Shown: positions 21,490 through 43,636 of the stretch, in pieces
How the letters are laid out: each line of letters begins with the position of its first letter
How positions within the stretch are numbered: the stretch's first letter is position 1
Source: Fibrobacter sp. UWR4
GTDB lineage: Bacteria; Fibrobacterota; Fibrobacteria; Fibrobacterales; Fibrobacteraceae
DNA length: 64,000 bases
NCBI RefSeq assembly: GCF_003149045.1
Contig: NZ_QGDU01000015.1
Location: forward strand, 1 to 64,000
Direction: 5' to 3'
Program-made: the position numbers and the translations under genes
The notes under the pieces: generated by a model
What the model was told of the DNA's origin: nothing
Databases searched by the model: none
The model's input: the letters and a program-made list of their open reading frames with translations, nothing else

Positions 21490-23127
21490 TTAAAGGAGAC
21501 CCTTAAAGAAGTCGTTGCCCTTGTCATCAACGAGGATGAAGGCGGGGAAGTTCTTGATGGTGATCTTGCGGATTGCTTCCATGCCCAGTTCCGGGAAGGC
21601 CACGATGTCGTTGGACAGGATGTTCTGTTCAGCAAGGATTGCAGCCGGACCGCCGATGGAGCCCAGGTAGAAGCCGCCAAACTTCTGGCAAGCGTCGGTA
21701 ACATCCTGAGAGCGGTTGCCCTTAGCCACCATGATCATGGAGTGGCCCTTGCTCTGGAAGCGCATTACATACGGGTCCATACGGCCAGCAGTTGTCGGGC
21801 CGAAGGAACCAGTGGGCATGCCTTCCGGAGTCTTAGCCGGACCGGCGTAGTAGATCGGATGGTTGGAGACAACTTCCAGCACCTTCTTTTCGATGTCGGA
21901 GAGTTCCTGGCCAGCTTCCTGCTTGTCGAGGATTTCAGCAATCTTTGCGTGAGCCATGTCGCGAGCCACAATCATGGTGCCCTTCAGGTTCAGGCGAGTT
22001 GCAACCGGATACTTGGTCAGGTCTGCGCAGACATCCTTCATGGGGCGGTCCAGATCAATTTCCACAGGATCAGCAATCTTCACAGCTTCGCCCTTGGGCA
22101 GGTACTGTTCCGGATTGTGTTCCATCTTTTCGAGCCAGAGACCGTTTTCGTCGATCTTAGCCTTGATGTTACGGTCAGCAGAGCAGCTAACACCGATGGA
22201 AACCGGGCAGCTAGCAGCGTGGCGGGGGCAGCGGATCACGCGAACGTCGTGAACCAGGTACTTGCCGCCGAACTGAGCGCCGATGCCAGTCTTCTGGCAG
22301 ATGTGGAGAACCTTTTCTTCCATTTCCACGTCGCGGAACATACGGCCGCCTTCGGAACCTGTGGTCGGAAGGTCATCGTAGTAACCGCAGCTAGCCAGCT
22401 TAACGGTATGGGTGTTCATTTCAGCAGAAGTACCGCCGATGACGATAGCCAGGTGGTACGGCGGGCAAGCTGCAGTACCGAGAGTCTTCACCTTTTCGGA
22501 GATGAACTTTTCCAGGTTCTTCGGGGTGAGGAGGGCCTTGGTCATGGGCCAGTAGTAAGTCTTGTTGGCAGAGCCACCGCCCTTGGCAACGAAGAGGAAC
22601 TTCATGTCGGCACCTTCTTCGGCGTGGATGTCGATCTGTGCCGGCAGGTTGCAGGCGGTGTTCTTTTCTTCGTACATGGTCAGAGGAGCGATCTGGCTGT
22701 AGCGGAGGTTCTTGGTAGTATAGGCGTTGAAGATACCTTCGGAAATTGCTTCGAAGTCATCGCAGCCGGTCCAGACTTGCTGGCCCTTGTGGGCAACGCA
22801 GATAGCGGTACCGGTGTCCTGGCAGAACGGGAGCACGCCCTTTGCAGCGACGCAAGCGTTCTTCAAAAGGGTGAGGGCGACAAACTTGTCGTTGTCGGAA
22901 GCTTCGGGATCCTGGAGGATCTTAGCCACCTTGGCGGTGTGAGCCGGGCGAAGGCGGAAGCTGACTTCTTCGAAAGCAGCCTGAGCGATCTTGGTGAGGG
23001 CTTCCTTAGAAACCTTCAGGATCTTCTTGCCTTCGAATTCGGTTACGGAAACGCCTTCCTTGCCGAGATTTACGTATTCAGTGGTGTCACCCGTGTGCTG
23101 GACGGTTGCTTCGTACTTGAATTCCAT
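21490..23127 (-). CDS. fumarate hydratase, class I (Fe-S)
   Basis: A 545-residue single-chain class I fumarase that interconverts fumarate and malate with a [4Fe-4S] cluster. The N-terminal alpha-type domain contains [10 protein letters not shown] near residue 120. The C-terminal beta-type domain contains [26 protein letters not shown] near residue 415, typical of FumA/FumB. In a Fibrobacter-like fermenter it would run in the malate-to-fumarate direction, feeding fumarate reductase and succinate production; this is inference. The codon use is that of a highly expressed gene. It is alone on the minus strand and divergent from the repeat protein at 23530. Confidence 0.95.
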
Positions 23128-23529
23128 ATGAGCCTCTTGAAATCGGCAATTATAAATTACGAGTTATGAATTACAAGATCTAACCAGGCGGCATAGCCGC
23201 GATTATTCTTCTCATAATTCATACTTTATAATTCGTAATTACCCGTAGGGTTAAAGTTACATGGGCAAAATTACATAATATTAGCTTAAAGCGGAAAGAA
23301 ATATCTTAAACCTTTAACATATTCGCTCTTTCCATCTTAGACCGGCATTTCAGGATAAACCACACATTTTGGGCGACAAATGCTCATTTTTAGGGGATGA
23401 ACAGGCTGTTATCGCATTTTCGCCACACTTTTCACCCTTTTTTTTCACTTTTTTCTTATTTTTTGTTTCTGTTTTGTCAAAGAGAATTTATTTTTTGGCA
23501 GGAAAAATTTTAAATCAAAGAGGAATACT
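23128..23529. other. 402-bp divergent gap with heptamer inverted array
   Basis: An AT-rich region between divergent genes. It contains the heptamer array at 23148-23243. The remaining part to 23529 has no recognisable gene and must hold the promoters of both genes; I cannot place the -35/-10 boxes convincingly. AGAGGAATACT before 23530 is a good ribosome-binding site. Confidence 0.6.
23148..23243. repeat. inverted heptamer array with GC-rich hairpin core
   Basis: The left arm (23148-23175) reads AATTACG, AGTTATG, AATTACA. The right arm (23212-23243) reads TAATTCA, TACTTTA, TAATTCG, TAATTAC, roughly its reverse complement. The core holds a small perfect hairpin GCGGC-ATA-GCCGC (23188-23200). 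The arms could pair into a long imperfect stem. Confidence 0.75.
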
Positions 23530-24309
23530 ATGAATATAAAGAACCTGATGCTGGCTACCATGCTCGCCTCCGCAGTTGTTTTCGCAGCACCGGCCGCCAA
23601 GAAGGGCGCCGCTCCTGCTAAGAAGAAGCCTGCTGCCGCTGCTCCTGCTCCGGCTCCTGCCGAAGCTCCGAAGGCTGAAGTTGCCGCACCGGCTCCTGCT
23701 ACTGAAGCAGCTGCTCCGGCCCCTGCCGCTGAAGCTGCTGCCGCTCCGGCTCCTGCCGCTGAAGCTGCCGCTGCTCCGGCTCCTGCCGCTGAAGCTGCCG
23801 CCGCTCCGGCTCCTGCCACTGAAGCTGCCGCCGCTCCGGCTCCTGCCGCTGAAGCTGCTGCCGCTCCGGCTCCTGCTGCTGAAGCTGCTGCCGCTCCGGC
23901 TCCTGCTGCTGAAGCCGCTCCGGCTCCGGCTGAACAGGCTGCTGCTCCTGCAGACTCTGCTGCAGCTCCTGCCGCTGAACAGGCTGCCGCTCCTGCTGAT
24001 TCTGCCGCAGCTCCCGTTGCTGAACAGGCTGCCGCCGAAACCGCTGCAGTAGACACAGCAAAGACCGAAGTTCTCGAAGCAAAGGCTGAAGAAGCTCCTG
24101 TTGATTCTGCCGCCCTCGCTAAGTCTGAAGAAGAAAAGAAGGCTGCTGAAGCTGAAGCAAAGGCCAAGGCAGAAGAAGAAGCTAAGGTTGCTAGCGAAGC
24201 TAACGGCGCTGCCAAGACCTCCGTCATGGAAAACCCCTGGGAATTCCTGATTGTGTCCGTGGCATTCGTTGCCTCCGTTCTCGCCATCATCTTCACAGGC
24301 AAGGATTAA
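23530..24309 (+). CDS. Ala/Pro/Glu-repeat protein with C-terminal membrane helix
   Basis: A 259-residue protein with a signal peptide (about 1-19, ending VFA). A short KK-rich stretch follows, then about seven 10-residue units of the type APAPAAEAAA (roughly residues 55-130), two units with AEQAAAPADSAA, and a Glu/Lys/Ala helix (about 175-225). It ends in one hydrophobic helix (WEFLIVSVAFVASVLAIIF) and GKD. The build suggests an extended envelope-spanning or anchored protein, similar to Pro/Ala spacers of TonB-like proteins but without a TonB domain. The function is unknown. It has a strong ribosome-binding site and a terminator. Confidence 0.75.
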   Translation: MNIKNLMLATMLASAVVFAAPAAKKGAAPAKKKPAAAAPAPAPAEAPKAEVAAPAPATEAAAPAPAAEAAAAPAPAAEAAAAPAPAAEAAAAPAPATEAAAAPAPAAEAAAAPAPAAEAAAAPAPAAEAAPAPAEQAAAPADSAAAPAAEQAAAPADSAAAPVAEQAAAETAAVDTAKTEVLEAKAEEAPVDSAALAKSEEEKKAAEAEAKAKAEEEAKVASEANGAAKTSVMENPWEFLIVSVAFVASVLAIIFTGKD

Positions 24310-31194: not shown

Positions 31195-34100
31195 ATGATG
31201 AAACTGATTAAGACAGCACTTTTTTTAGGCATGACCATCGTCACTGCAGCAACCGCTGCAGACGATTTTCCAAACATCGACCGCACCGACAAGGTCAGCG
31301 AGCGACGCTATTTGGATTCATTGAACGTCTATAATAGGCGTCCTATTCGAGTGAATCAAAGCGGATTTAGGCCACAGGACCACAAGTACGCTTACGTGGC
31401 TGATCCCTCCGTCAAGACATTCAAGGTGATTGACGCCAACACAGGCAAGCAAGTGGATGCCGGGAACACAAACCTGACCTTGCTGGATGCAAACGCCCCA
31501 AAGCCAAACATCTGGGTAAATGGATCATTCAACTCTCTTGACGTTCTTTACGAATTCGGGAAAAATGATTCCCTCACTACAGCAACGGAAGCGCTATACA
31601 AGGCAGACTTTACCGGTCTTACCACCATGGGTGAATATTACATCGTAGTTGGTAACGACACCTCCGCCACCTTCTATGTGCATCCCTCCATCTTCAACGC
31701 CATTCTTGAAAACTCCTTGAAGTTCTTCGGCATCCAGCGCTGTGGCAATACCAAGTCCCACATGCACGCTGCTTGCCACTTGAAGGATGGTTCTGCCATA
31801 GGTCACGACTTGACCGGTGGCTGGCACGACTGTGGTGACCATTTCAAGCCTTCCGAAACCATCGGCTACACAGCCTATGCACTAGCAACCACCTACCTCG
31901 TCTATAAGGACAAGGCGGAAGACCGCTATGGCAATTCCTACGCAGATACCACCATTACGGATGGTATTCCTGATATCCTTTACGAAGCAAAGGTCGGCGC
32001 AGACTATATCTTTAAGCTTTACAAGGCATCCAAGGCAGATGGTCTCATTGCCAAGAACGATATGTACCACACGGTGGGTAGTGAACTGGACCATCAATTT
32101 TGGGACGTTCCCGAAAAGCAGGATGCCCAGGCATACACAAAGGGCGGTCCCGATCGCGATGTGACTGCTGAAGTGGGAACTTACTCTGGCGCATTTGCCG
32201 CTGCCCTGGCCTACTTCGCCGCAGGTTGGGAACCTTATGACCCCGTTTATGCAGACTCCCTTCTGGAAGCAGCAAGAGACATCTACACAAACGTCACTTT
32301 CCCCCATACCACCGCAGGACAATATGGTTTAACCAAGTCCACAATCCCCAGCGATCTCTATCCCGGTGGTAGTAACCCCTCCAACATGAATGACGATGCT
32401 GCAGCAGCCGCATTGGCATTGTGGTACGCCACCAAGGATACCATATATCAGTACGATCTTTACAAGAACACGAAAATTCATGACAATCCGGACAACTACA
32501 GATTCAACAACGAACCCAATGATGCAGGTCCGTACTTTAGAGGCGGGTACCTAGGCCAGATTAGCGGTTTCTATCCCGGCGGCTGGATGACCGACTATGA
32601 AAATGTTCATGCCTATGTGCTGTTTTCCTTCGTCAAGCTTATTCTCGAAAACAAGGAAGTGGCCCTGAGCTACAATGTAGGCGAACTGGAAAGAGATACT
32701 TTGCTCCAGCGCGCCACCAACTCACTGCGTCGTTTGACCGATGACGGGTCCCAAGGTTCCAATAAGATCTATGAAAATCGATTCGGTAGCGTCAAGGCAG
32801 TTCCTCCCTACAATCTTGTCTGGACATCCAGCGACTGGGGTTTCAACCGTTATAACATGGGTGCCGCAAACGCAATCTTCATGCTTTCTGAAATCACCAC
32901 AGGCGCAGAACATGAAGCCTACCTGAACCTGGCTCTAGACAACATCTACTACAACCTGGGCGCAAACCCCTGGGATATTTCCTTCATTATGGGTGCTGGC
33001 GACAAGAACCAGAATCACCCCCATAACCGTACTGCAAACCCCGATGGTTATAATGCAGGTGGCATGCCTTACGAATACCGTTGCCCCCGAGGAGCCTTGA
33101 TGGGAGGTGCAGCCCCCACTAGAACCTTGCTGGAAGACTGGAAAGATTATACCGCCACGGAAACCTGTATTGACTTCTCCGTCCAGCTCTTGATGCCGGC
33201 CCAGAGTTTGGCAGCAACACTTCCCATCGATGCCGAAGGACCTCTATTCAGTAACATCGCAGGAACCCCCATTACGGAAACTTCCGCTATCGTTAGCTGG
33301 GATGCCAATGAAGTTGCGCTGGTAACCGTATTCTACAACACCACACCTTCTGCATCCGGCGCAAAATCAGTCCAGCAGACCACAGCAAGCAAAGGCGGTG
33401 CAGTGACTCTTGAAGGCCTTGTGATGGGAGAAACCTATTACTTCTTCCTGGAAGGCATGGACACCAAACGCAATATTTCTACGGACGACAATCATGGTCA
33501 GTGGTATCAGTTTACCATGACCCCTTCCACCACCACCATTAGCGGTGTTACCATCTGCCAGGTGGACAACCGTAGTGCAAAGATTTTCTGGTGGAGTGGC
33601 GACCGTATGAACGGCATCGTAAACTACGGTACGTCCATGACCGCTCTTAATGAGGCCCAGGCGGCAGAAGGCGGCGCAGTTCTGTTCCATCAGGCAACGC
33701 TCACCAACCTGAAGCCCGGTACCACTTACTACTTCAACGTTTCTTCCGGCGCAACGACCGACGACAACGGTGGTAAGGGTTACTCCTTCACCACGGACGC
33801 CTACTCTACCTACGCCAACCTGGACATTTCCATTAAGCCCAGCTCTTACCAGGACAATGCAGTCTGTTCCGACTGGAAGGATTGTAAGCAATTTATCATC
33901 AACATTACCAACAACGATACCATTCCCTTTGAAGACTTCGAACTTCGTCTGTACCTGAACAATCCCAACCTTTCAGCATTGTGCAATATCAAACAGAACT
34001 TTGGCGGTAGCGGTCTTGCCGGGCCTCCCATCTCCATTGATTTTGGTACGGCTCAGCCCGATGGATTTGGCGGGTACTATTTACCCATCAAGGCCAATGG

Positions 34101-43559: not shown

Positions 43560-43561
43560 AA

Positions 43562-43636
43562 TTAGTAGGAAGTAGGAAGTAGGAAGTAGGAAGTGAGATG
43601 CATTCTGTCTACTTCCTACCGTCTACTGTCTACTAT
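43562..43636. repeat. inverted heptamer array between tkt and nrdR
   Basis: The left arm repeats TAGGAAG about four times (43564-43594). After a 12-bp core the right arm reads CTGTCTA, CTTCCTA, CCGTCTA, CTGTCTA (43606-43636). The two arms are of complementary type. The tkt stop codon (TAG) lies in the right arm. Confidence 0.8.

Follow-up and report, generated by a model that had tools for sequence, protein, structure and literature searches.

The element upstream of a fumarase gene

Within the window (the whole stretch of 64,000 nucleotides of Fibrobacter DNA that was analysed), a short non-coding element sits between two protein genes and not in a 23S rRNA gene. It lies upstream of a class I fumarase gene, and an Ala/Pro-rich reading frame made of 30-bp repeats (23530-24309), without a Pfam match, adjoins it on the other side. 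The gene for an IVP/S23 protein that its longer relatives encode is absent from this copy. The locus is organised as follows:

21490-23127, minus strand: class I fumarase gene (Pfam PF05681, PF05683), with its start codon 20 bp from the element
23148-23175, plus strand: left arm, four degenerate heptamers AATTATA-AATTACG-AGTTATG-AATTACA, recognised by period and inverted match against shuffles
23176-23185, plus strand: linker between left arm and core; the stretch just 5' of the core is partly kept among copies
23186-23205, plus strand: conserved 20-nt core AGGCGGCATAGCCGCGATTA, that is AGGCGGC-ATA-GCCGCGATTA, found in 47 of 80 genomes of the genus
23188-23200, plus strand: hairpin GCGGC-ATA-GCCGC inside the core, with a free 3-nt loop and a stem changed on both sides in orthologues
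23206-23213, plus strand: linker between core and right arm
23214-23241, plus strand: right arm, four heptamers ATAATTC-ATACTTT-ATAATTC-GTAATTA, complementary in type to the left arm and also recognised against shuffles

Folding and a shuffle test indicate that the two ends of the element, which carry inverted repeats, are able to pair, and the RNA folds well from either strand (z of -4.75 and -3.50). The element has the period of 7 expected of heptameric simple repeats (STRR-like), but its heptamers are degenerate and stand in inverted orientation on either side of a core. The sequence 3' of the hairpin is GATTATTCTTCTC, with no run of T, so that it does not qualify as an intrinsic terminator.

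Period and symmetry against shuffled sequence

In slightly wider stretches of the two arms the lag-7 identity was 15/24 and 17/27, and the best inverted match between these stretches was 16. We scored each intergenic region with a joint statistic that combines two period-7 tracts with their inverted complementarity. The region 23128-23529 reached 46, whereas the maximum of 1000 dinucleotide shuffles was 36 and none (0/1000) attained the observed value, which confirms the inverted heptamer array with a perfect GCGGC/GCCGC hairpin core that the initial annotation had placed at 23148-23243. The shuffle-controlled search for inverted 7-periodic pairs that it had proposed gave a positive outcome also across the genome of the target, where the statistic was at least 38 in 10 of 205 sampled intergenic regions and in 0 of 205 when each was shuffled once. 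Under a looser count (14 of 21 matches), period 7 was found in 19 of 211 intergenic regions for a shuffle mean of 7.6, and periods 9, 10, 12 and 14 were raised too (14, 12, 13 and 16 regions, respectively); outside repetitive genes, long period-7 tracts are prominent among the periods across the window. Two further elements of the window ranked at the top of the 205 regions with the joint statistic:

2081-2446, no strand assigned: compound element whose heptamer arrays enclose two copies of another core, of ~70 nt (rank 2 of 205)
43560-43632, no strand assigned: AGTAGGA array, core of ~15 nt and inverted array of complementary type (rank 1 of 205)

The plan that the target had been said to share with the array at 2081 is real, but the latter is not a single array pair around one core. 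Its ~70-nt core (2163-2235 and 2318-2391), unrelated to the GGCGGC hairpin, also stands between heptamer arrays at 32265-32345 and 32395-32470 of contig C1 of genome G000.

The hairpin core is dispersed among Fibrobacter genomes

Going beyond the initial annotation, we found that the core of the target is conserved across the genus and that similar arms enclose IVP genes in several phyla. The core was searched with the pattern AGGCGGC-nnn-GCCGCGATTA, leaving the loop free (1-31 nt), and occurs in the genus genomes as a short extragenic palindrome with many copies; the reversed pattern, used as a control, gave 0 matches in the same 80 Fibrobacter genomes. Nearly all of the loops listed for these genomes are exactly 3 nt long, of any sequence. 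A scan of genome contigs returned the core in at least 119 stretches, and among the matches listed Fibrobacter is the source of most. Around the 22 matches in named non-Fibrobacter records there is no 7-periodicity, the lag-7 identity never exceeding 0.43 on either flank.

For the comparison of arms, 92 copies were reduced to 63 non-redundant ones by removing near-copies. Both arms proved strongly 7-periodic: their lag-7 identity was 0.52 on the left and 0.59 on the right, and shuffling brought these values down to 0.28 and 0.30. Each arm also matched its own partner (11.2) better than swapped arms matched (7.35, sd 0.43, maximum 8.86; 5000 permutations). RNA folding agreed, with -33.9 kcal/mol for own right arms vs -27.5 kcal/mol for swapped ones (67 of 98 copies with clear arms), and the GC skew, considered in view of Rho sites, was +0.39 for left arms and -0.58 for right arms. 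The arms are of many kinds, yet match within each element, and the family to which the target belongs is a class defined by period and symmetry, as the initial annotation had suggested.

The set of 98 copies includes loci after L247, a few of which may not be Fibrobacter. Co-directional genes flank 72 of these copies (48 and 24 in the two orientations), convergent genes 12 and divergent genes 2; a further 5 are inside genes, 4 of them with low lag-7 scores in both arms, and the remaining 7 are incomplete. In many copies the element fills the gap from a stop codon to the next start codon. Some copies (L110, L113, L217, L219) carry a second hairpin, such as CACGTGCTTCGCACGTC, just before the GGCGGC hairpin, so that the core can be double.

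REP and BIME sequences are likewise short intergenic hairpins, present in many copies and rare between divergent genes. One could accordingly see the target as an element of the REP/BIME or MITE type whose movement depends on a transposase of a known kind (e.g. Y1), with the heptamers as incidental decoration, and the asymmetric conserved core with its GC-rich hairpin, the number of copies and their preference for co-directional over divergent gaps would all suit this explanation. Nevertheless, Y1_Tnp was detected in only 27 of the 80 genus genomes, one of its genes being in the genome of the target; it is absent from core-rich genomes such as G017, G029, G033 and G038 and does not track the arrays, leaving the family without the consistent Y1 transposase of REPs. 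Moreover, heptamer arms also flank quite different cores and IVP genes, making the arms, and not the hairpin core, the common part; to our knowledge, REPs have no counterpart of these period-7 arms. We consider a REP-like or MITE-like origin unlikely. Reverse transcriptase (18/80 genus genomes) does not track the arrays either, and both enzymes were rejected as general drivers.

Variation at the fumarase locus

The position of the element 20 bp upstream of the fumarase start codon and its good RNA folding raise the question of a locus-specific cis-regulatory RNA, that is a 5' leader hairpin or an attenuator of this gene. The orthologous locus carries the same element in G031, a close one in G037, and in G033 and G035 a target-type element together with an additional GAGACGA array; the core is missing in G030, the arms are different in G040, and in many species the arrays are unrelated or absent. 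Where the stem differs among orthologues it is altered on both sides (GCGGC/GCCGC to GCAGC/GCTGC). Such variation among species argues against a leader dedicated to fumarase, as do the occurrence of the same core beside many other genes and the lack of any Rfam match above the gathering score in the window, where weak chance-like matches below it were obtained for two arrays. This explanation therefore appears very improbable to us.

Inverted heptamer arrays on the flanks of IVP genes

Of 167 genomes examined in the phylum, 116 contain AGT-kind arrays of period 7 and 100 contain the IVP family (PF05635), which is present in 53 of the 80 genus genomes. A first pass had dropped 13 of 30 IVP loci: a motif filter removed 12, and L338 had a short flank. 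After this filter was replaced by a profile search, 28 Fibrobacterota IVP genes with full flanks were retained (L336 and L338 being omitted for short flanks). Period-7 tracts were present on both sides of 23 of the 28, compared with 0 of 340 control genes, and complementary flanks in 26 of the 28, compared with 3 of 340, all controls coming from one genome, G000. A second set of 17 loci, in two of which (L400, L412) the gene is broken or truncated, gave period 7 on both flanks in 10 and complementary flanks in 12.

The arrangement extends to other phyla. From 34 plasmid records with an IVP match, 20 were examined (cyanobacteria, Azospirillum, Gemmatirosa, Riemerella), with period 7 on both flanks in 14 and period 8 in 4. 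Among the 29 loci from other phyla, a set in which L439 had no IVP match, the two flanks share period 7 in 13 cases, period 8 in 2 and period 9 in 1; the remaining 13 have no period in common. Over 94 IVP loci (Fibrobacterota, mostly cyanobacterial plasmids, other phyla), both flanks have period 7 in 60, period 8 in 8 and period 9 in 1, and the flanks are complementary in 69. When the windows were moved 200 bp outward at the same loci the signal was gone (period 7 shared in 0/92, complementary flanks in 1/92). Loci without a shared period are 11 of 46 in Fibrobacterota, 13 of 29 in the other phyla and 1 of 20 on plasmids.

Period 8 on both flanks (L350, L354, L359, L361 and L424 are examples; L414 has period 9) is clustered on the IVP tree, requiring 5 changes against a shuffled mean of 7.8, with 1 of 500 shuffles as low. 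A period fixed by the lineage of the IVP protein was rejected, since L350, with period-8 arms, sits among period-7 IVPs.

On plasmids, the two neighbours of an IVP gene are in some cases cas6 and cas4, two type III CRISPR genes or two ribonucleotide reductase genes; at one cas6/cas4 locus, on a cyanobacterial plasmid (L346), the long heptamer arrays are direct and not inverted. The Myxococcota genome G175 contains many short IVP-family genes without heptamer flanks (L420, L427, L433, L437, L440). Phage records gave no IVP match at E 1e-3, and PADLOC no match for the IVP of the target's own genome.

At the scale of whole genomes, genus genomes with IVP have a median of 58 AGT-type arrays vs 7 in those without, about eightfold, and a median of 2 hairpin cores vs 0, both with kinship ignored; the difference between genomes with and without IVP persists among those at least 90% complete. 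Arrays also occur in some genomes where IVP was not detected (51 in G045).

Probable insertion and exchange of cores, and arm growth by slippage as an alternative

Comparison of orthologous junctions brought further information. At one of them, G002, G003 and G043 have an empty site, with the stop codon joined directly to the ribosome-binding site of the next gene, and G000 carries an array-IVP-array insert of about 460 bp; G029 (L365) has another hairpin sequence there, TGTCATTCTCGCGAAAGCGAGAATC and more. A second junction is occupied by an IVP element in G049 and by a hairpin-core element in G005, and at yet another the IVPs of different species are only 40% identical. These sequence comparisons support insertion of the elements and point to an interchange of their cores.

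Orthologous copies also differ by whole 7-nt units, which, together with degenerate units and arms that are alike in kind and not base by base, is what neutral tandem growth would produce by 7-nt slippage and hairpin-templated correction between the arms, with IVP as a bystander. Other features do not fit this scenario: arm length is narrow (median 4.4 units), unlike the product of free slippage; both arms switched kind together at the junction represented by L066 and L167; the arrays are strongly linked to a single protein family and to whether a genome contains it; and the insert at the empty site is clean. We thus regard slippage with a bystander IVP as rather unlikely.

We propose instead that the target belongs, as a short non-coding copy, to a family of dispersed bacterial elements that is linked to IVP, probably mobile, and made of inverted arrays of ~4-5 heptamers around a variable core, and give this reading a probability of roughly 0.75. 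As core, the target has a small hairpin, and other members have a sequence of ~70 nt or the gene for IVP/S23, a four-helix-bundle protein. The reading builds on what was observed, namely the anatomy of the element, its copies, the association with IVP genes in several phyla, the IVP junction at which relatives have an empty site and the preferred location between co-directional genes.

IVP protein and proposed mechanism

The IVP of the target's own genome matches PF05635 (1.9e-40) and the bAvd family just below its cut-off (8.9e-10). The structures solved for two of its relatives, 2GSC and 2RLD, each contain five chains. A previous report (PMC4990558) calls the X. campestris protein a toroidal homopentamer, and PF05635 has been noted as Avd-like in earlier work; a literature search on Avd and pentamer gave no match. 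Five-chain relatives, a toroidal pentamer and arms of this length suggest that a ring of five subunits would contact about five units. As a possible mechanism for these presumably mobile elements, the IVP ring may bind the arms as RNA or single-stranded DNA, with approximately one repeat unit per subunit, and could act in trans on short copies such as the target. By analogy with the intervening sequences of 23S rRNA, and as folding predicts, the transcribed arms would form a long hairpin that RNase III could cleave, and an insert inside an operon, between two of its genes, would thus do little harm.

A broader proposal, possible in our view but not probable, is that of a transposase-free family in which a toroidal pentamer of IVP/S23, related to the Avd protein of diversity-generating retroelements, would read inverted arrays with one unit of 7 (8, 9) nt per subunit, and of which the heptamer repeats of Fibrobacterota, cyanobacteria and Xanthomonas and the rRNA intervening sequences would all be traces. 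If one unit were indeed read by each subunit, the element would be recognised by its period and symmetry, leaving its sequence free to drift. The independence of the period from IVP lineage speaks against a rigid form of this idea.

Relation to known systems and significance

The nearest known system is the intervening sequence of 23S rRNA with its IVP/S23 gene, as in Coxiella burnetii. The report on it (PMC4990558) describes terminal inverted repeats that pair in a 28-bp stem, cleavage of this stem by RNase III, two to three GACAGAT heptamers at its end, before S23p, and the IVP/S23 gene inside, as in the longer relatives found here. The elements studied here differ in standing between protein genes, in their degenerate heptamer arrays on both sides and in including short copies without a gene.

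The inverted GGGAATC array pairs of Xanthomonas (PMC4692102), of which 70 and 75 convergent pairs were counted in the genomes studied, are similar in having mostly four units and in lying mostly between co-directional and seldom between divergent genes. They differ in having one kind of heptamer; no conserved hairpin core is reported for them, and the text of the paper mentions S23 0 times. The TAACTGA repeats of Beggiatoaceae, cyanobacteria and Bacteroidetes, as far as covered by the text available (PMC4679880), are also intergenic heptamer arrays that change in steps of 7 nt between close strains, but they are direct and not inverted around a core, and no link to IVP was found in that text. 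In a search that covered few subscription papers, we found no paper that connects IVP genes of several phyla with inverted heptamer arrays.

IVP/S23 proteins and bacterial heptamer repeats have both long been known, and the literature that we found holds no agreed function for either. The presence of IVP genes of several phyla inside heptamer arrays, together with short copies devoid of the gene in the same genomes, gives each of these puzzles a partner, and the pairing of the IVP ring with the repeat turns into a question that can be directly tested, namely whether the ring binds the repeat.
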